DNA of 64,000 bases, from NCBI RefSeq assembly GCF_000022065.1, contig NC_011898.1, positions 496,001 through 560,000 of the forward strand, written 5' to 3'. The number at the start of each line of letters is the position of its first letter. The first letter of the stretch is position 1. The notes under the pieces are model-generated. The model had not been told where the DNA came from, ran no database searches, and saw only the letters and a list, made by a program, of their open reading frames with translations. The DNA comes from Ruminiclostridium cellulolyticum H10. GTDB lineage: Bacteria > Bacillota > Clostridia > Acetivibrionales > DSM-1351. Shown in pieces: positions 1 through 9,965 of the stretch. Position numbers and translations under genes: made by a program.

Positions 1-570
1 GCAAAGCTGAAAATTGAGTCCGAAAGAACGCCGAAGGACTACTATTACTATTACTTTGACAGAAAGACATCGGGGGTGTGCCGGAACAGTAAGGCTAATT
101 TTCATATGGATATAGTTGAACAAAAGGTAATTGAAAAGGTGAAAGAAATTCTTTTATCCTATGACCAACTGGATGAAATAATTAATAAGAAACACTACCT
201 TTTCGACACAAGATACATAAAAGAAAAAAAAGAAAACGAAAGACTTAGGGATCGGCTTCAAACTGTAAATAGTGCAATCAGAAGAGAACAATCAGCATAT
301 GAAGCAGATGTAATAACCCTTGATGAATATAAAACACGGTTGGATGAGCTTCGCCGTCAAAAGCTCTCTTTAGATGAAAAACTTGAAAAAATAAACTCCA
401 CACCTGCTCAATCGGGTAGCTTGGAGGTAGCAAACAAGCTAAAAGAAACCATACGTAGTTTACATAACCTGGAACAGGATTTTCAGTACGAAATAATAAG
501 AAAATTAATAAACAAAATATATATAAAAGATAATTATTCTCTTGAGTTTGAATTTACTTTCAGTGATTAA
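1..570 (+). CDS. Large serine recombinase, C-terminal part (5' end outside window)
   Basis: The reading frame is open from base 1 and ends at 570, so this is the last ~189 residues of a larger protein. The first ~35 residues contain the second half of a recombinase zinc-ribbon (a Tyr-rich strand, then SGVCRN). These are followed by a long Glu/Lys/Arg-rich coiled coil (about residues 70-150) and a short C-terminal beta segment; this is the usual tail of large serine integrases of the SpoIVCA/phage type. The catalytic serine domain is not in the window. The gene points at, and ends about 80 bases from, the break in cotJC, which is where an integrase sits relative to its attachment site. It is clearly different in sequence from the sigK-element recombinase at 7940-9598, so the two elements are probably independent arrivals. 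Confidence 0.85.
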   Translation, partial: AKLKIESERTPKDYYYYYFDRKTSGVCRNSKANFHMDIVEQKVIEKVKEILLSYDQLDEIINKKHYLFDTRYIKEKKENERLRDRLQTVNSAIRREQSAYEADVITLDEYKTRLDELRRQKLSLDEKLEKINSTPAQSGSLEVANKLKETIRSLHNLEQDFQYEIIRKLINKIYIKDNYSLEFEFTFSD

Positions 571-2558: not shown

Positions 2559-2616
2559 GGAAAGGTACACTATTTTTGAGGTATTAATTACTTCATTATC
2601 ATAGGGGGTGCCTTGC

Positions 2617-3033
2617 TTGATAGATATACTGGTTTCTACAATCTTTGATGTATTAAGCAATCTTTTTGTAATGATTGGCTACGTATCCAATGTAAATTCC
2701 TTCCCCCAGCCTTTAAAACCGGAGGAAGAACAGTACTACGTTGAGGCATACAAAAATGGTAGTGAGGAAGCAAGAAATATTCTTATTGAAAGAAACTTAA
2801 GGCTTGTTGCACATATTGTAAAAAAATACGGCTCTTGTGGCAGTGACAGCGATGACCTTATCTCTATAGGTACTATCGGATTGATTAAGGCAATATCCAC
2901 ATTCAACGTGGATAAAGGAACTCGTCTTGCAACCTATGCTGCCAGGTGCATAGAAAATGCAATTCTCACGCTACGGAAACATATTATATATTTTATATAT
3001 AATATTCTGTCTTATCGGGGTTTTTCATATTAA
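2617..3033 (+). CDS. sigK: sigK 5' part: N-terminal half of sporulation sigma factor pro-sigma-K, interrupted
   Basis: Sigma-K is the last mother-cell sigma factor of sporulation. This fragment holds the FPQPL motif, sigma region 1.2/2 ([42 protein letters not shown]) and then departs from the family after ENAIL. Genuine sigK sequence ends at about 2959; the frame then runs through element DNA to a stop at 3033. The likely start is TTG at 2617, with AGGGGGTG upstream. The in-frame GTG at 2608 has no ribosome binding site. The ~20 residues before the GYVSN segment resemble the membrane pro-sequence of Bacillus pro-sigma-K, which Clostridioides difficile SigK lacks. Joining it with the fragment at 9594-9965 gives about 236 residues, close to the normal 234-241. 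Confidence 0.93.
2938..2981 (+). other. attL of the sigK element
   Basis: This is the left junction of sigK and element. The core AAATG is at 2955-2959. Host sigK sequence lies to its left, and the element arm (beginning CAATTCTCAC) lies to its right. The arm is nearly the reverse complement of the element arm at attR, as expected for a serine-integrase attP half-site. Confidence 0.8.
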
Positions 3034-3763
3034 ATTCAGAGAATACCCTGTCACGGATTTTCAAAAAATCATGACTTGTTCGGTCCCGGTTTCTTGCCAG
3101 AGGTACACTGATAATTGATTTTATTTTACCGGGATTAGGTGTCATAATGACAATCCTGTCTGCAAGAAAAACAGCTTCTTCAATATCATGGGTAACAAAA
3201 ATAATAGTCTTTTTCTCATGTTCCCAAATATTTGAGATTTCATCCTGCATTTTAAGCCTTGTTAATGCATCCAAGGCACCAAAAGGCTCATCCATAAAAA
3301 TAATTTCAGGATCAACAGCCAGAGCACGGGCTATCGCAACACGCTGCTGCATACCGCCTGATAGCTGAGAAGGGTGACTTTTGCTGAATTTAGAAAGTCC
3401 CACTAAATCAATATATCTACTGGCGATATCATACCTTTCCTTTTTTGATAGTTTTTTACTCTCTAAACCCAATTCAACATTTTTTTGAACTGTCCGCCAA
3501 GGCAGAAGACCGTAGTTCTGAAAAATGGTTACATTGCTGATACAAGGCTCCGAGACCTGTTTACCGTCTATTTGTATAGTACCGCTGTTAACTTTTTCAA
3601 AACCTGCAACGGAACTAAGAAGCGTAGTCTTGCCACAGCCGCTTGGACCAAGCAGGCATATAAACTCCCCTTTTTTAATTTGTAACGATACATGGTCCAA
3701 GGCTTTGAAAATAGAATTATTTTGTAAATATTCCTTTGAAACATTCTTAATATCAATAAACAT
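2993..3763 (-). CDS. ABC transporter ATP-binding protein, NitT/TauT (SsuB/TauB) type
   Basis: This 256-residue nucleotide-binding protein energises the importer with the permease and binding protein next to it. It has the Walker [10 protein letters not shown] near residue 40, a Q-loop, the signature [15 protein letters not shown] and the Walker B IIFMDEP. All are intact and the order is that of the SsuB/TauB/NrtD family. ATG 3763 is preferred over the upstream TTG at 3775, because GGAGG lies inside the longer version. It overlaps the permease gene by about 11 bases. It is the last gene of the cooS operon and ends only ~34 bases from the element's left core, with no terminator visible. The substrate cannot be told from sequence. 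Confidence 0.9.
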
Positions 3764-4520
3764 TGTTACCTCCAATAACGCCCCATCTTTTCAAGAGCTG
3801 TTTTTCCGCAAGGCCTATAAAACTGTCAAGGATAAGTCCTATAATCCCGATGGACAAAATATTTGCCAGCAGTAAATCTGCTCTGAGATTGTTTCTTGCA
3901 TCAATAATCATGAAACCCAGGCCTGTCTGAGCCCCAACCATCTCACCTGCTACCAGAAAAACCCATGCTGTTCCTAAAGCAATATGGAGTCCCGAAGCAA
4001 TTGAAGGAAAAGCGGCAGGAAGAACTATTTTGGTTAAAAGCATTGGCTGTTTTATGCCAAAGTTCTTTGCAACCTTTATGTAGGTTTGGTCCACCTTTCC
4101 TACGGCGTTTACGGTAGCCAAAAGAATAGGAAAGAATGCTGCTATGAAAATTATAACAATAGCAGGAAGGTCACCTATTCCGAATATAAGTACAATAAAT
4201 GGAAACCAGGCAATCGGTGATATGGGCCTTACCAATTGTACAACGGGATTTACAAAGCTCCATGCATTTCTGAACCAACCCAGAACAAGACCCAGAGTAA
4301 CTGCTGAAAAAGCTGCCAGAAGGTATCCTACAAAAAATCTGTACATACTGGACTTGACACCTGCAAAAAGAGTTCCGCTTGAAACAAGCTCCAAAAAACC
4401 ATTTCCAACATCAGGGGGAGAGGGAAGCAGAGCTTGATTCCAGTACCCCAACGATACGGCTCCCTGCCACAGAATCAATATTAATGCGAATGATACTAGA
4501 ATATGAATCAGTTTCTTCAT
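3753..4520 (-). CDS. ABC transporter permease, NitT/TauT (SsuC/TauC) type
   Basis: This is a 255-residue integral membrane protein with about six hydrophobic segments. It has the permease cytoplasmic loop around residues 145-165 (KVAKNFGIKQPMLLTKIVLPAA), which is the EAA-like motif contacting the ATPase. Family members import small oxyanions, sulfonates, pyrimidines or related compounds. The ATG at 4520 has a GGAGG site. It lies 23 bases after the binding protein gene and overlaps the ATPase gene, so all three are one transcription unit behind cooS. Confidence 0.9.
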   Translation of the reverse strand: MKKLIHILVSFALILILWQGAVSLGYWNQALLPSPPDVGNGFLELVSSGTLFAGVKSSMYRFFVGYLLAAFSAVTLGLVLGWFRNAWSFVNPVVQLVRPISPIAWFPFIVLIFGIGDLPAIVIIFIAAFFPILLATVNAVGKVDQTYIKVAKNFGIKQPMLLTKIVLPAAFPSIASGLHIALGTAWVFLVAGEMVGAQTGLGFMIIDARNNLRADLLLANILSIGIIGLILDSFIGLAEKQLLKRWGVIGGNNVY

Positions 4521-4543
4521 GTTTGAACCTCCAATCTATTTAT

Positions 4544-5503
4544 TTACCGTAAAAGGCTAGAGTCTACAAAGTCATCATAAGCCGGAGGATTTGAGGAAAT
4601 CCCGAATTCCTTGATTTTAGAAGTAAGGCTGTCATATGCTTCTCTGGTAATTTCGAGGTCGTTGAATGAAATCCATTTTAAGGACAGGGTCAGAACCTTA
4701 TCGTCAAGATTAAGGTATTTCTTTGCAATAGCATTAGCCTCATCCTTGTGAGAACCAATGTATTCACCTGCATCTCTAAAACTGGATACAACCTCTTTTG
4801 CCACATCCTTGTTGCTGTTAATAAATTTGTCGGACAAAACCAGAGAGCAGCAAATGGAATCCTTCCAGAGTTCATTGGATTCAAACAATACCTTTCCTGT
4901 ATCAAGGGCAATAGACTTTGCTCCAAATGGTTCGGCAACACTATATCCGGCTATTTGACCTTGAGCAAGAGCCGCTGGCATTTCAGGAGGAGGAAGCTCA
5001 ACTATGTTTACATCCTTGTAGGAAAGTCCGACATTTTTGAGCATTTGTCCCAAAAGGATGTTATGGGAGGATTGTCTGTGGGGAATGGCAAAATTCTTTC
5101 CCTTTAAATCCGACGGACTTTTAATGTTTTTGGAAACAACAATTACGTTTCCATCCTTATGACCCAGTGCAACCGCCTTGACTCCGATACTCTGTTCCTT
5201 TGCCTTCATGGCAAGCTCAATAAGAACGGAAGCACCGTCGACATGGCCTGTATTAAGGGCATCCATCAGTTCGGGCCATGACCCGTATTTGACTAGCTCA
5301 ATTTTATATTTATTCTCTTTTTTATCCTGCAATTCTTTCTCCACAAACACAGGCAAAGCATGTGTTAAAGGAAGGTAGGCAATTTTTATGGTTTTTATAT
5401 TTGATAAACCGGATTCTTTGACACCGCCGGAATTTCCGCAGGCTGCAGTACCTGCAATTAGTCCAAAAATCAAAGCAGCTACAATAGACTTTTTAATACT
5501 CAT
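4544..5503 (-). CDS. ABC transporter substrate-binding lipoprotein, NitT/TauT family
   Basis: This 319-residue protein has a signal peptide and lipobox ending TAAC, so Cys22 would be lipidated and the protein held on the outer face of the membrane. The mature part has the NMT1/SsuA-like fold pattern: a first strand IKIAYLPLTHALPVF, then a DALNTGHVDGA loop, SPSDLKGKNFAIP, and GQIAGYSVAEPFGA. These match the nitrate/sulfonate/taurine/bicarbonate family, but ligand residues do not identify a substrate. It lies between cooS (42 bases upstream) and its permease. Linkage with cooS suggests a ligand or cofactor linked to one-carbon or nickel chemistry, but that is a guess. Confidence 0.88.
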   Translation of the reverse strand: MSIKKSIVAALIFGLIAGTAACGNSGGVKESGLSNIKTIKIAYLPLTHALPVFVEKELQDKKENKYKIELVKYGSWPELMDALNTGHVDGASVLIELAMKAKEQSIGVKAVALGHKDGNVIVVSKNIKSPSDLKGKNFAIPHRQSSHNILLGQMLKNVGLSYKDVNIVELPPPEMPAALAQGQIAGYSVAEPFGAKSIALDTGKVLFESNELWKDSICCSLVLSDKFINSNKDVAKEVVSSFRDAGEYIGSHKDEANAIAKKYLNLDDKVLTLSLKWISFNDLEITREAYDSLTSKIKEFGISSNPPAYDDFVDSSLLR

Positions 5504-5545
5504 AGTTATCCTCCCAAATCATACTCCAGATTGAACCCTAATATT

Positions 5546-7537
5546 CTAATCCCAGCCTAAAGCTTTTCTCTGTACTTTAAGGTCATTTACAATCTCATTT
5601 GCCAATTCGATGTGATTGACATTGACGATCATCCTTGAACCCAGAATATCTTTAGTTCCATTACTCATAAATTCTGTAACATTATCTGAACCTTGAGTTG
5701 GAGCATATACACAGTGATAAGAATCAATACCCAACAATCTGAAACTCAACGCTGCACATATACCTTTTTCGTTAGACCATTCCGGACTAGCAAAAGCATA
5801 AGGCATATCCTTGATGTAAATATCAGAAGTCTCAGCAACAGCCTTAAAAAGTGCGGATGCTCTTGCATTATCCAAACATTCGCCCATATGCCATACAGGA
5901 GGAAGATCCTTTAAAAAACCCTTCAAATTATCACCTGTACGCTCCAAAGCAGCAGTAGAGCAATATCCAAGTTTCATGAGAGGAAAGGAAGCACACCCGT
6001 TGGTTAATACCAGAACATTATTTTCTAAAAGGATGTCTGTAAGCTCAACTATGGCCTTTTCATAGACAATACGAGGGTTGTTACACCCAACCAGGTTAAC
6101 AATCCCAAGGATTTCACCATTTTTTAATGCTTCTGCAATGGGCTTAACACTTCCAAAATGCCTGTTAATATATTCAACGGAAAATCCGACTTCCGCTTCA
6201 ATTTCATATGGCGGAATATAAACTGGAACCTCTCTTCTCTGGGTAAAGCTCTCAATAGCCCTGTTCAGTATCTTCGTTGCAAGCTCGCTAGTCTGGTCAA
6301 TATTAGAGTGGTGGTGATCAAAGCCGTAATGCTCGGCTCCCGGTAGTCTGGCCGAGTCACTCGTGGTAACCACAGTTGTTTTAAAACAGCTTGCAACCTC
6401 CATGATAGAAGGGAAAACATCCTGAACGTCAGCTACCCATAAATCCAAAGCACCAGTTCCCAGAACCAGCTCAGCTCCGATAGCATTAGAAAGGGGTATA
6501 ACACCGCCATATCTGTACATAGCAGAAAGTCCTGAACAGCAAATACCATAAAACTTAATTCCCAAAGCACCGTTTTGCCTTGCAAGTTCTTGAAATTCAT
6601 CTGAATTACCAAGCTTTACAATTTCACTTACCAAAACCGGAGAGTGGCCGTGAATTCCTATGTTAACATAACCCTTTTCCAAAGCACCGATATTAACCTT
6701 AGAAGTACTTCTTACAGGTAGTCCGAACAAACTGTCCATTGCGATTGATGAACCCAAAACACAAGACCATGCAAAGGCTACACCTGTACGCAGCATCTGT
6801 TTCATAATATTTTCCCAATCACTGTCGTTTCCTGTACCTGTTCTGTTAAGACTCTCGAAAACTTCGTGGTAAGGACTGATGGGAATAATATCAAGATTAC
6901 TCCAAACATTAATTCGTTCTTTTGAAGCAAATGCATTAAGTGTATGGTGAGGCCCGGGAATAGTTCTGGATAAGTCCTCCAATAGAATATCGGCAATTAA
7001 CCCTGCAAGTTCCTTAATGCTTTTATTCTCAGTGTCAAGTCCAAAGGCTTTAGCTGTGGCCAACACCTTGTTTTCTCCCTCAATAGGAAATTTGATTCTG
7101 CCTTCAGAAGCATACTTCAATGCCAGCATACTTTCACGTCCGCGTGCACCATGCTCTGCAGCACCTGCAGCGACACTCCTGAGTATATTTCGTGCTACAA
7201 TAACGTCTGCATCAGCTCCACAAACACCTTTAGGACTTTTTTTCGTAATTTTACATGGCCCCATGTTGCAGATTCTGCAGCAGACTCCTGCAAGACCGAA
7301 GCCGCACTGTGGCTTCTGAGCGTCAAATCTGTCGAAAACAGTCTCGCATCCTTTCTCCTCCATATATAGAAGCATAGCTTTTACGGCAGGGTCCGGAGTC
7401 TGTTCCAGAACCTCCTTCTTCGAAGCGAAACTTTTTCTGTATTCAGCTACGGCAGTTGCATAATCATTGCAGCCTGAATCGTTATGATGGTGATTTTCTG
7501 AATGATCAAATTTTGTGTGATGATATCTAAAATTCAT
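5546..7537 (-). CDS. cooS: CooS-type Ni-dependent carbon monoxide dehydrogenase catalytic subunit, variant active site
   Basis: This 663-residue protein is homologous to the homodimeric anaerobic CODH that interconverts CO and CO2. The D-cluster cysteines (C78, C86) and B-cluster cysteines (C87, C90, C95, C106) are present. C-cluster ligands are present in IHGHSPVL (His), GICCSG, LVGCNN, TNGCASF and HMGECLDN, and the catalytic Lys in SNEKGI. At the place of the remaining C-cluster Cys (Cys333 of Carboxydothermus CODH-II, DYQC) there is Asp373 (DVQD). Of the proton-relay His series only the first remains. The first 20 residues are His-rich. The start ATG has a GGGGG site. No cooC, cooF or acetyl-CoA synthase genes are adjacent. 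CO oxidation is therefore likely by family but not certain. Confidence 0.88.
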   Translation of the reverse strand: MNFRYHHTKFDHSENHHHNDSGCNDYATAVAEYRKSFASKKEVLEQTPDPAVKAMLLYMEEKGCETVFDRFDAQKPQCGFGLAGVCCRICNMGPCKITKKSPKGVCGADADVIVARNILRSVAAGAAEHGARGRESMLALKYASEGRIKFPIEGENKVLATAKAFGLDTENKSIKELAGLIADILLEDLSRTIPGPHHTLNAFASKERINVWSNLDIIPISPYHEVFESLNRTGTGNDSDWENIMKQMLRTGVAFAWSCVLGSSIAMDSLFGLPVRSTSKVNIGALEKGYVNIGIHGHSPVLVSEIVKLGNSDEFQELARQNGALGIKFYGICCSGLSAMYRYGGVIPLSNAIGAELVLGTGALDLWVADVQDVFPSIMEVASCFKTTVVTTSDSARLPGAEHYGFDHHHSNIDQTSELATKILNRAIESFTQRREVPVYIPPYEIEAEVGFSVEYINRHFGSVKPIAEALKNGEILGIVNLVGCNNPRIVYEKAIVELTDILLENNVLVLTNGCASFPLMKLGYCSTAALERTGDNLKGFLKDLPPVWHMGECLDNARASALFKAVAETSDIYIKDMPYAFASPEWSNEKGICAALSFRLLGIDSYHCVYAPTQGSDNVTEFMSNGTKDILGSRMIVNVNHIELANEIVNDLKVQRKALGWD

Positions 7538-7593
7538 TTTAGCACCCCCTTTAAAAATAATACATAGAATTCCAATAGATATAGTATGAAATG

Positions 7594-7622
7594 ATTATAA
7601 TAAGTAGAGAATGAAAAGTCAA
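7594..7622 (-). promoter_or_regulatory. Sigma-A promoter of the cooS-ABC operon
   Basis: Reading on the minus strand, TTGACT (7622-7617) and TATAAT (7599-7594) are separated by exactly 17 bases, 57 bases before the cooS start. This is a near-consensus vegetative promoter, so the cargo should be expressed in growing cells rather than only in sporulation. No operator dyad stands out. Confidence 0.75.
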
Positions 7623-7742
7623 TGATTATTTATACAATTCATATATAAATACTATGCGATTACAAAAATCAATTTATACATACATTTGTACGAGTATAAC
7701 GCTCATATAGATAAACAACAACAAAATCAGGGGCTGTGAAGA

Positions 7743-7931
7743 ATGGGCAAGCAAAAAAAGGACTATGAAATAGTTATTTTTACTCCCGACACCCAGGAAC
7801 AAATAATGCATCTGAAAAATGAAATAGGAAAGGCATATGGTGAATTTATCATAGAGCATTTGACCGAGTTGGATATTTCATATAAACAAATAACTTCGAT
7901 TTATAGAAAAATAATTAAAGAAATCAGGTGA
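7743..7931 (+). CDS. Small protein upstream of the skin recombinase, unknown
   Basis: This is a 62-residue, Lys/Glu/Ile-rich, mostly helical, soluble protein with no Cys and no recognised motif. The start ATG has a GGGGCTGTG stretch upstream that is only a weak ribosome binding site. Its stop TGA overlaps an in-frame GTG of the recombinase gene (GTGA), and the likely recombinase ATG is 8 bases beyond, so the two are almost certainly co-transcribed. The position invites comparison with recombination directionality factors such as CD1234 of the C. difficile skin element, but no sequence similarity is claimed. Confidence 0.6.
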   Translation: MGKQKKDYEIVIFTPDTQEQIMHLKNEIGKAYGEFIIEHLTELDISYKQITSIYRKIIKEIR

Positions 7932-7939
7932 CTTTATTT

Positions 7940-9598
7940 ATGAGGGCGGCAATATATTCCAGAAAAAGTAGGATTACCGGCAGAGGAGAGAGTATAGAAA
8001 ATCAGATTCAAATTTGCAAAGAGTATGCCATAAACAATTTGGGTTTGTCTGAAAATGATTTTGTAATTTTTGAAGATGAGGGTTTTTCTGGAGGTAATAC
8101 AAACAGGCCGGAATTTAAGCATATGATGAGTGAGGCAAGAAACAAAAAAATTGATATAGTGATTTGCTACAGACTGGATCGTATAAGCAGAAATGTATCG
8201 GATTTTTCACAGTTGATAAATGAGCTTGAAAGATATAACGTCAGTTTTATTTCCGTTAAGGAGCAGTTCGATACAACGAAGCCTATGGGAAGAGCCATGA
8301 TGTATATAGCTTCGGTATTTTCCCAGTTGGAAAGAGAGACGATTGCAGAGAGAATAAGAGATAATATGCTCCAATTAGCAAAAACAGGAAGATGGCTCGG
8401 AGGTGTTAGCCCAACAGGCTATAAATCCGAAATGATATTGAAAAAAGACTCGGCCTTAAAGCAGACCAGAATGTTCTGTCTAAGAATAATACCTGAAGAA
8501 GCAGAGCTTGTAAAAGATATTTATGATAAATTTATTATTTTCAAATCAATGACCAAGGTAGAAAAAAGCCTTCTTGAAAACAGACTTAGAACAAAAAACG
8601 GGGTGGATTTTTCAAGGTTCTCCTTGAGATTTTTACTTACAAATCCTGTATATGCAATTGCAGACGCAAAACTATACTATTATTTATCTGAACAGGGTTA
8701 TGAGATATATTCAGATTTAAGGGCATTTAACGGTGTGAACGGTGTGATGGCCTACAACAAAACAAGGCAGGGCAAAAACACATTATCAGAAAAGTACAGA
8801 GATCCAAAGGAATGGGTAATAGCCGTAGGAATGCATCCGGGAATTATACCGTCAGGTAAATGGATAGAAGTTCAGAAATTGTTGCAAAGAAATAAAACAA
8901 AAGCCTACAGGAACATCAAAAACACTAGTGCTCTGCTGTCGGGTATTCTGAAATGCGAAAACTGTGGGAGTTTTATGAGACCTAAAACCATGACAAGAAT
9001 GAACTCAAATGGGGATAAGATTTTTTACTATATTTGTGAATTAAAGGAAAAAAGTAACAAAACACGTTGTGATACACAAAATTTAAACGGTAATATATTG
9101 GACTCATTAATACTGGAGAGAGTGGCTAATATGACGAAAAAATACATTCCGGCAGTCAGTCACAATATATCGGTAAACCGGCTTGGTATGAAGATGGAGC
9201 AGAAACCTGAAATAAAGCTTATTAAAGATAAACTCACGGCAGCAGAAACAGAAATGAAGAACCTTATAAGACTTGCATCCAAACAAGCAGATGAAAAGGT
9301 ACAAACAATGATATTGAAACGTATGCAAAGTATTTCACAAGATATAAATATATATAGAAGCAAAATCAAAAAGTATGATGATGTTACAAATAAGAGTGGT
9401 ATAGAACCTGCGGATGAGAGAAATCTAATACGTATACTATCAGATCCGGGTTACTGTATTATGAATATGATGAAAATAAAGCAAAAGAGGTCTATTATAA
9501 AAAGTGCTGTGGATGTTATAACATGGGATGGAAGGCAGATAAAGCTCAGGCTGAAAGGAAGCAGTGAAATGTTGCCGGATTGTAAGGATTGCAAATGA
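7940..9598 (+). CDS. Large serine recombinase of the sigK element (SpoIVCA type)
   Basis: The resolvase domain begins RAAIYSRKS with the catalytic Ser at position 7. It continues through ENQIQICKEYA, DEGFSGGNTNRPEF, CYRLDRISRN and the SQLERETIAERI helix. A recombinase domain follows (~155-290), then a zinc ribbon (CENCG ... C ... C, ~335-375), a coiled coil (~415-470) and a basic tail. The length of 552 residues is normal. The start is ATG 7940 with AGGTG nine bases upstream; GTG 7928 is also possible. The gene ends DCK with stop TGA at 9596-9598, inside the right-hand crossover core, so the last stop base is supplied by sigK. Its expected job is precise excision of the element from sigK in the mother cell. 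Confidence 0.95.
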   Translation: MRAAIYSRKSRITGRGESIENQIQICKEYAINNLGLSENDFVIFEDEGFSGGNTNRPEFKHMMSEARNKKIDIVICYRLDRISRNVSDFSQLINELERYNVSFISVKEQFDTTKPMGRAMMYIASVFSQLERETIAERIRDNMLQLAKTGRWLGGVSPTGYKSEMILKKDSALKQTRMFCLRIIPEEAELVKDIYDKFIIFKSMTKVEKSLLENRLRTKNGVDFSRFSLRFLLTNPVYAIADAKLYYYLSEQGYEIYSDLRAFNGVNGVMAYNKTRQGKNTLSEKYRDPKEWVIAVGMHPGIIPSGKWIEVQKLLQRNKTKAYRNIKNTSALLSGILKCENCGSFMRPKTMTRMNSNGDKIFYYICELKEKSNKTRCDTQNLNGNILDSLILERVANMTKKYIPAVSHNISVNRLGMKMEQKPEIKLIKDKLTAAETEMKNLIRLASKQADEKVQTMILKRMQSISQDINIYRSKIKKYDDVTNKSGIEPADERNLIRILSDPGYCIMNMMKIKQKRSIIKSAVDVITWDGRQIKLRLKGSSEMLPDCKDCK

Positions 9599-9614
9599 GA
9601 TTCTAATGCAAATA
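9571..9614 (+). other. attR of the sigK element
   Basis: The core AAATG is at 9593-9597. To its left is the element arm ending GTAAGGATTGC, which also encodes the last residues of the recombinase; to its right is sigK sequence beginning AGATTCTAATGC. Eleven bases of the left arm match the reverse complement of the attL arm at 9 positions. Confidence 0.8.
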
Positions 9615-9965
9615 AGAGCATCCAAGAAAATTCAGAATGAGGTTTCTTTGCAAGACCCTATTGGTGTGGATAAAGAGGGCAACGAAATCACATTAATTGA
9701 TTTAATCAGTAATGACTCCGAGTCGGTAGTTGATGAGGTTGAATTAAAAATGCAGGTTAAAAAGCTGTACAGTAAAATGAAAGGTACTTTAAAAAACAGA
9801 GAAAAGGTGGTCTTGGAATTAAGGTATGGACTACTGAACGGTTCCAGTAAAACCCAAAGAGAAATTGCTAAAATTTTAGGAATATCCAGATCGTACGTAT
9901 CAAGGATTGAAAAGAAAGCAATAAAAAAATTGAGCAAAGAACTAAAACCTGAGGGCTGCCACTAA
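9594..9965 (+). CDS. sigK: sigK 3' part: C-terminal half of pro-sigma-K
   Basis: This holds the rest of sigma-K from NEILMQIRASKK onward: the linker VSLQDPIGVDKEGNEI, and region 4 with REKVVLELRYGL and the helix-turn-helix TQREIAKILGISRSYVSRIEKKAIKKL. It has no start codon of its own that fits the family; an in-frame ATG at 9564 lies in element DNA. A correct product therefore requires excision of the 6.6-kb element. The reading frame ends KPEGCH, and the stop sits in the loop of a terminator. Confidence 0.93.
   Translation, partial: NEILMQIRASKKIQNEVSLQDPIGVDKEGNEITLIDLISNDSESVVDEVELKMQVKKLYSKMKGTLKNREKVVLELRYGLLNGSSKTQREIAKILGISRSYVSRIEKKAIKKLSKELKPEGCH

Follow-up and report, generated by a model that had tools for sequence, protein, structure and literature searches.

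We analyzed a 64,000-nucleotide stretch (the window; positions 496001-560000) of the Ruminiclostridium cellulolyticum H10 genome, which is a single contig of 4,068,724 bp. In the window, a 6,638-bp element bounded by two AAATG copies (2955 and 9593) interrupts the sigma-K gene sigK at its E-N-E codons. Judging from sequence, this is very probably a sigK intervening (skin-type) element and not a prophage remnant. It would be excised in the mother cell, its cargo would be kept in the germline, and a core of a large serine recombinase (LSR) and a small open reading frame (ORF) would stand beside a cargo slot. Here the slot holds an operon of cooS, encoding a nickel carbon monoxide dehydrogenase (Ni-CODH), and an ABC importer. 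The sigK elements are usually viewed as dead prophages or timing devices. The present one is a non-phage element with a conserved, selected metabolic operon, which suggests that genes for metabolism can be stored over long periods inside a developmental gene.

Split sigK and its attachment sites

The 5' half of sigK (2608..2959, plus strand) runs from a pro-sequence-like N-terminus through the left AAATG, and the 3' half occupies 9593..9965 on the same strand. Each half matches TIGR02846 (spore_sigmaK) separately, with 175.8 bits for the 5' half and 173.2 bits for the 3' half. An in-silico join at AAATG gives 720 nt encoding an uninterrupted, in-frame SigK of 239 residues followed by a stop codon. 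The initial annotation had described a sigK split at ENEIL with AAATG ends that becomes an exact in-frame pro-sigma-K on removal of the element, and both parts of this description agree with the AAATG copies 6,638 bp apart and with the joined frame. It had also named a second intact sigK and further inactivating changes in the halves as findings that would speak against it. No second intact sigK was found by a TIGR02846 profile search of the whole genome, and no inactivating change was seen in either half. The one other near-full-length TIGR02846 match (260 bits, under the cut-off of 298.65) adjoins a SigG-like match and is taken to be sigE, and a second intact sigK was rejected on this ground. 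An assembly artefact was rejected because the same layout is present in independently assembled species; elements at the same sigK codons recur in other species. By comparison with B. subtilis sigma-K, the window sigma-K still has an N-terminus resembling a pro-sequence, which makes a second control of its timing probable.

Wild-type C. cellulolyticum showed 35.7 +/- 7.3% heat-survival sporulation, and a spo0A mutant gave no detectable colonies (PMC3936895). These heat survivors, formed although the sole sigK found is split, are the strongest indirect sign of excision, and sigK is presumably rebuilt in this species. These spores also argue against a fossil element, in which excision would be defunct and sigK dead in the lineage. 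The sigK halves and the LSR gene are under constraint, with ratios of nonsynonymous to synonymous substitution (dN/dS; NG86, the present genome, G000, against four close species) of 0.005-0.029 and 0.14-0.18, respectively, and the attachment (att) arms are conserved across species. We regard a fossil as very improbable, and a dead sigK was rejected because of the dN/dS constraint and the heat-resistant spores.

The left AAATG core (attL, 2955..2959, plus strand) contains the predicted crossover dinucleotide AA at 2956-2957 and is matched by the right core (attR, 9593..9597, plus strand), in keeping with the in-frame join. One attP arm, CGGAAACA, lies at the left end of the element (2974..2981, plus strand) and its partner, TGTTGCCG, at the right end (9570..9577, plus strand). 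The two are symmetric about AA, and the left arm is conserved in other sigK elements. When the element ends are rejoined, they form an attP palindrome with 19 of 26 positions matching about the central AA. Not one shuffle out of 2,000 attained this score, and a scan of the 64-kb window gave a best score of 18. Fifteen elements were laid out in this way. All have the central AA at both ends, and in 12 both arms are within two mismatches of TGTTTCCG and CGGAAACA; a poor left arm in G077 and different arms in G002 and G037 run counter to a simple picture. The shuffle test was run on 10 of the 15 rejoined sites, and nine gave palindromes reached by at most 1 of 2,000 shuffles. A palindrome around AA suits the needs of a serine recombinase whose overlap is two bases, and it persists though its halves lie kilobases apart.

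Recombinase core and proposed excision

The LSR gene (7928..9598, plus strand) encodes PF00239 Resolvase, PF07508 Recombinase and PF13408 zinc ribbon domains and matches the integrase family phrog_95. It starts at GTG 7928 or, alternatively, at ATG 7940. A 62-aa ORF (7743..7931, plus strand), absent from the gene list of the initial annotation, overlaps the LSR gene by four bases if the GTG start is used. Its product is a candidate recombination directionality factor (RDF) by its position, which is that of Skr, and by its homologues upstream of LSR genes elsewhere. Of 17 elements examined, 14 have such a homologue upstream of the LSR gene, which it directly precedes in 12; G001 and G008 have an alpha/beta hydrolase gene between the two. 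Two groups of these homologues align with each other (hhalign probability 97.5, E 7.6e-12). The predicted structure of the 62-aa protein has two helices (mean pLDDT 86.8), and the dN/dS of its ORF is 0.17-0.25 in the comparison above. A block upstream of the ORF (7681..7715, plus strand), conserved in an alignment of 5 species, is a candidate promoter or regulator site.

We propose that sporulation switches on the 62-aa protein in the mother cell, where it would turn the LSR toward excision. The LSR would cut attL and attR at the central AA, free the 6,638-bp circle and reunite the sigK halves in frame to encode pro-sigma-K. Vegetative cells and the forespore would retain the element, so the CODH/importer operon would be inherited and used in growing cells. 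By analogy with the known skin elements, loss would be confined to the terminal mother cell. The LSR and small-ORF unit would be the core, and the space from attL to this core would be a cargo slot that is filled differently or left empty elsewhere.

Several observations weigh against this proposal. Searches of Pfam, NCBIfam and PHROGs gave no match for the 62-aa ORF, and a PDB fold search with the model of its product gave no match at E <= 0.001. The 62-aa protein has a pI of 6.7 and its homologues 7.7-9.6 (some with extended N-termini), unlike the acidic CD1234 of C. difficile. Sigma-E and SpoIIID boxes were sought by eye in the conserved block at 7681-7715, and none was convincing. G006 keeps the cooS operon outside an intact sigK, so the operon does not need the element. 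A simple picture is also complicated by G035, whose palindrome is not significant (102 of 2,000 shuffles) because its arms are displaced by one base, by G037, whose sole small-ORF candidate is on the opposite strand at the far end of the element, and by G002 and G018, which have other, distant recombinases instead.

PHROGs searches with all 6 element proteins matched the LSR to integrase, invertase and transposase families and the ATPase and permease to ABC-transporter and unknown-function families; the other three proteins had no match, and no phage structural or lysis gene was found among the six. A prophage remnant was rejected since the matches are phage-type only for the integrase-type recombinase. 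The initial annotation had called the element compact, which fits its 6.6 kb; apart from this recombinase, it has no phage genes. The nearest phage integrase to the LSR belongs to a Terrisporobacter phage (38.9% identity), and no att palindrome resembling the window attP was found in the 6.5 kb of this phage examined.

The element resembles B. subtilis skin (SpoIVCA/Skr) in the split sigK, the element-borne LSR and the in-frame rejoining. The gene for Skr (64 aa) is directly upstream of spoIVCA and overlaps it (PMC6957869), as the 62-aa ORF does with the LSR gene if this starts at GTG 7928. Both elements have a useful operon aboard, which is ars in B. subtilis (PMC12607644). B. subtilis skin has 48 kb, many phage genes and arsenic resistance, and its LSR gene adjoins the sigK 5' half, whereas the window element has 6.6 kb and a CODH/importer operon, and its LSR gene adjoins the 3' half. 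In skinCd of C. difficile, the LSR gene (CD1231) is immediately upstream of the sigK 3' half, as in the window, and there is a small RDF, which is produced in the mother cell only (PMC5025042). The element skinCd is prophage-like, with 14.6 kb and 19 genes; its sigma-K is without a pro-sequence, unlike that of the window, and its RDF CD1234 is acidic and, going by the gene numbers, is no neighbour of the LSR gene, unlike the 62-aa ORF. The window merges both layouts: the LSR gene is placed as in C. difficile, by the 3' half of sigK, and a small ORF directly precedes it as in B. subtilis.

Non-phage intervening elements like the present one include sigK island IV of the B. cereus group (22 kb) and gin in gerE of B. 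cereus ATCC10987 (28.6 kb), which are excised during sporulation (PMC10745906, PMC5595907). These carry restriction-modification genes, with three recombinases in gin, and the excerpted text describes no enzyme-plus-importer operon. Intervening elements, in sigK and elsewhere, have been described before, and some of them lack phage genes or carry useful cargo (PMC12607644, PMC10745906, PMC5595907). The statement of the initial annotation that known skin elements carry phage-like or unknown genes is not supported, as B. subtilis skin has ars (PMC12607644) and the B. cereus group a restriction-modification insertion (PMC10745906). Its further statement that no skin element with CODH cargo had been described is upheld in the open-licence PubMed Central (PMC) literature, where, among the matches listed, we found neither such cargo nor any sigK element of Ruminiclostridium. 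According to a 2013 paper, a skin element in sigK occurs among Clostridia only in C. difficile strains (PMC3789822), which is contradicted because sigK elements are present in Ruminiclostridium and relatives. Within the same matches, the metabolic operon cargo, the core-plus-slot layout with near-cargo-free forms, the composite element and the doubly split sigK look new.

A further complete serine recombinase of 539 aa (window 1-570; full gene L201:4951-6570) is encoded outside the element, by a gene that stops some 2 kb before sigK. Eight other genomes of the genus have homologues of its C-terminal part upstream of their sigK.

The Ni-CODH cargo operon

The cargo consists of four minus-strand genes at 2993-7537, as the initial annotation had described with cooS and a full NitT/TauT-type importer, and is divergent from the 62-aa ORF and the LSR gene. 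The first, cooS (5546..7537), encodes a Ni-CODH catalytic subunit of clade B-1 type (TIGR01702, 503 bits, cut-off 478) with a His-rich N-terminus. It is followed by the genes for an NMT1-like substrate-binding protein (SBP; 4544..5503, PF13379), whose nearest solved chain in a PDB sequence search is 3un6_A, an ABC transporter permease (3753..4520, PF00528) and an ABC transporter ATPase of the NitT/TauT type (2993..3775), whose best NCBIfam models, SaoA and NtrCD, are below cut-off. In an alignment with chain 6t7j_B, CooS has Asp at a C-cluster Cys position and keeps the remaining Cys and His, residues which we take to be C-cluster ligands.

Group B-1 Ni-CODHs are marked by an N-terminus rich in His and by Asp or Glu in place of the second C-cluster Cys, and clade B enzymes cluster with NitT/TauT transporters, for which nickel import has been proposed (PMC6344411). 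According to another paper, biochemical characterization of any clade B enzyme is awaited, and an altered function has been suggested (PMC13056359). By its N-terminus, its Asp and its ABC partners, the window operon is, at the sequence level, of a known kind, the clade B-1 Ni-CODH/NitT-TauT cluster (PMC6344411, PMC13056359). The name CO dehydrogenase used in the initial annotation is correct by family (TIGR01702). CO oxidation is not to be assumed because of the Asp at the C-cluster Cys, the awaited biochemistry of clade B and its suggested change of function. The operon places this uncharacterized CODH clade in a genetically tractable cellulose degrader.

Of 46 named cooS loci, 37 have the SBP and permease genes next to cooS; in two of the 37, the ATPase gene is missing at a contig end. 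Only three of the 46 are flanked by sigK pieces, all in Ruminiclostridium (flanks up to 10 kb, often shorter). The window operon is cargo of a sigK element, unlike the 43 named loci without a sigK link. The dN/dS values (dS 0.4-0.9 for the cargo genes) are 0.035-0.042 for cooS and 0.046-0.057 for the ATPase gene, both inside the 0.009-0.090 spanned by genes around sigE, and 0.09-0.14 for the permease and SBP genes. cooS is under strong purifying selection (dN/dS about 0.04). Since the dN/dS of the cargo genes shows purifying selection, we infer that the cargo is used.

The sigK slot in related genomes

In the genus, sigK is in pieces in 10 of 11 genomes (G010 has only the 5' half on the contig) and intact in G006. 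The cooS operon is within the sigK element in seven (G000, G001, G004, G005, G007, G008 and G009); the recombinase is only 51% identical in G001 and G008. A close cooS was not found in G002, G003 or G010. The initial annotation had suggested a search of related genomes for an intact sigK or for sigK elements with different cargo, and both were found, the former in G006 and the latter in other species.

Some elements are nearly free of cargo, with little beyond the small ORF and the LSR in G003 (2,133 bp) and G077 (1,634 bp). The sigK halves are about 1.6 kb apart in G110, G229 and G405, and the small ORF of G405 was matched over ten residues only. The loci of these very small elements (1.6-2.1 kb, recombinase and small upstream ORF) are L064:10990-13120, L072:1390-3030, L182:8363-9994, L183:5348-6976 (ten residues of the small ORF matched) and L184:2723-4347. 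In other species, the slot between attL and the small ORF/LSR is filled with an oxidoreductase gene by Pfam (G036), a gene of equal length (G013), a GH9-dockerin gene of cellulosomal type (G035, L068:2953-5364) or ATPase, SEC-C and DUF genes (G019).

The G005 element is composite. Its 16,393 bp include an asparagine-synthase/nitroreductase/YcaO cluster between attL and the CODH part. At the border of the two (L078:12736), directly before the usual left end of the CODH element, there is a decayed, attP-like site whose 14-bp inverted repeat, TGTTTCTGTAGTGT...ACACTACAGAAACA, is perfect. A search for the scar pattern, with two mismatches in 16 allowed, found no such site in the window, in the 21 other element contexts or in 60 mononucleotide shuffles of the G005 element. 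About 2.1 Mb of fetched loci gave 8 further matches (two being one place), none of which has comparably long arms by eye. We read this scar as a probable trace of tandem accretion of a second element, for which composite staphylococcal cassette chromosome (SCC) islands are a parallel.

In G007 and G009, sigK is split twice. The second element lies at E-G-N-E-I, and removal of both restores full sigK. These second elements (L059:13111-18507 in G007, 5,397 bp; L060:13133-17560 in G009, 4,428 bp) contain a different, distant recombinase, about 20% identical to the LSR in G009, and a 743-aa gene, which is GH127 by Pfam in G007. Two genomes run counter to this simple picture: G036 has a doubly split sigK of similar layout without read-through when joined, and the join in G035 gave no long frame.

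Because other genes fill the same slot and the G005 cluster was added with an att scar, the slot appears to capture cargo. We tentatively suggest, as a possibility with nearly as much for it as against it, that the LSR and small-ORF unit of Clostridia is a domesticated gene-capture slot. Through tandem site-specific accretion, its 1.6-kb self-excising core would acquire genes for metabolism (CODH/importer, YcaO cluster, cellulosomal GH9, oxidoreductase). The cargo would be kept in the germ line and shed only in the dying mother cell, and some species would need two excisions for sigma-K.

The persistence of elements with little but LSR and small ORF (G003, G077; about 1.6 kb in G110, G229 and G405) would also fit an element kept for timing, in which sigma-K is held back by the LSR/RDF unit, as it is in C. 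difficile, and the operon is carried along incidentally. Skin deletion in C. difficile led to premature sigma-K activity (PMC5025042). We find this explanation rather doubtful, as the constraint on cooS is about equal to that on the genes around sigE, a second timing control is probable from the pro-sequence-like N-terminus, and sigK is unsplit in G006 and 36 other genomes of the order. The range among relatives, from almost no cargo through other or stacked cargo to two elements, lets timing, cargo or lock-in be tested as the reason for retention.

Gene capture by the slot would also compete with a chance association, in which a host CODH operon fell into a sigK element once and the two are linked by descent only. 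In the cooS tree, all Ruminiclostridium copies form one clade that includes the non-sigK copy of G006, which stands beside the G000 group (support 0.917). This clade, and the wide occurrence of the operon outside sigK in the flanks examined, would be expected from such an association. It is nevertheless unlikely in our view, as 7 species have retained the operon in the slot, other genes fill the same slot elsewhere, and G005 has its extra cluster with the att scar. The operon may have entered the sigK slot once, with later loss in G003 and G010, or more often.

Across the order, by our reading, 37 of 58 genomes have an unsplit sigK, which in one of them is truncated at a contig end; 18 have it in pieces, and three could not be assessed. 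Some of the pieces are at contig ends (G025, G041 and G037). In G018, sigK is split a few codons away by another recombinase. The LSR is found at E <= 1e-90 in 16 of the 58 genomes and, in a class survey, at E <= 1e-100 in 39 of 391. Among the best-scoring 20 further class-survey loci, 14 have a sigK-like piece in the stretch and 6 have the LSR and no such piece. Some survey pieces are sigK-like and not proven sigK, because they match the window sigK at only 37-57%.

Five proteins around sigE served as the species-tree marker. polC was dropped as a marker since G002 and G006 have only 55% identity, against 82-93% in the other eight. The polC of G006 (L145) and of G002 (L146) is 55% identical to that of G000, and the genes around sigE are 65-95% identical; polC may have been replaced in these two genomes. 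A further layout is found in G040 (L084:6575-6859), which has an intact sigK and, 6.2 kb downstream of it, an additional sigK 3' end covering residues 142-236. From its sequence, this looks as if an element had inserted at a second site and brought a replacement 3' end.

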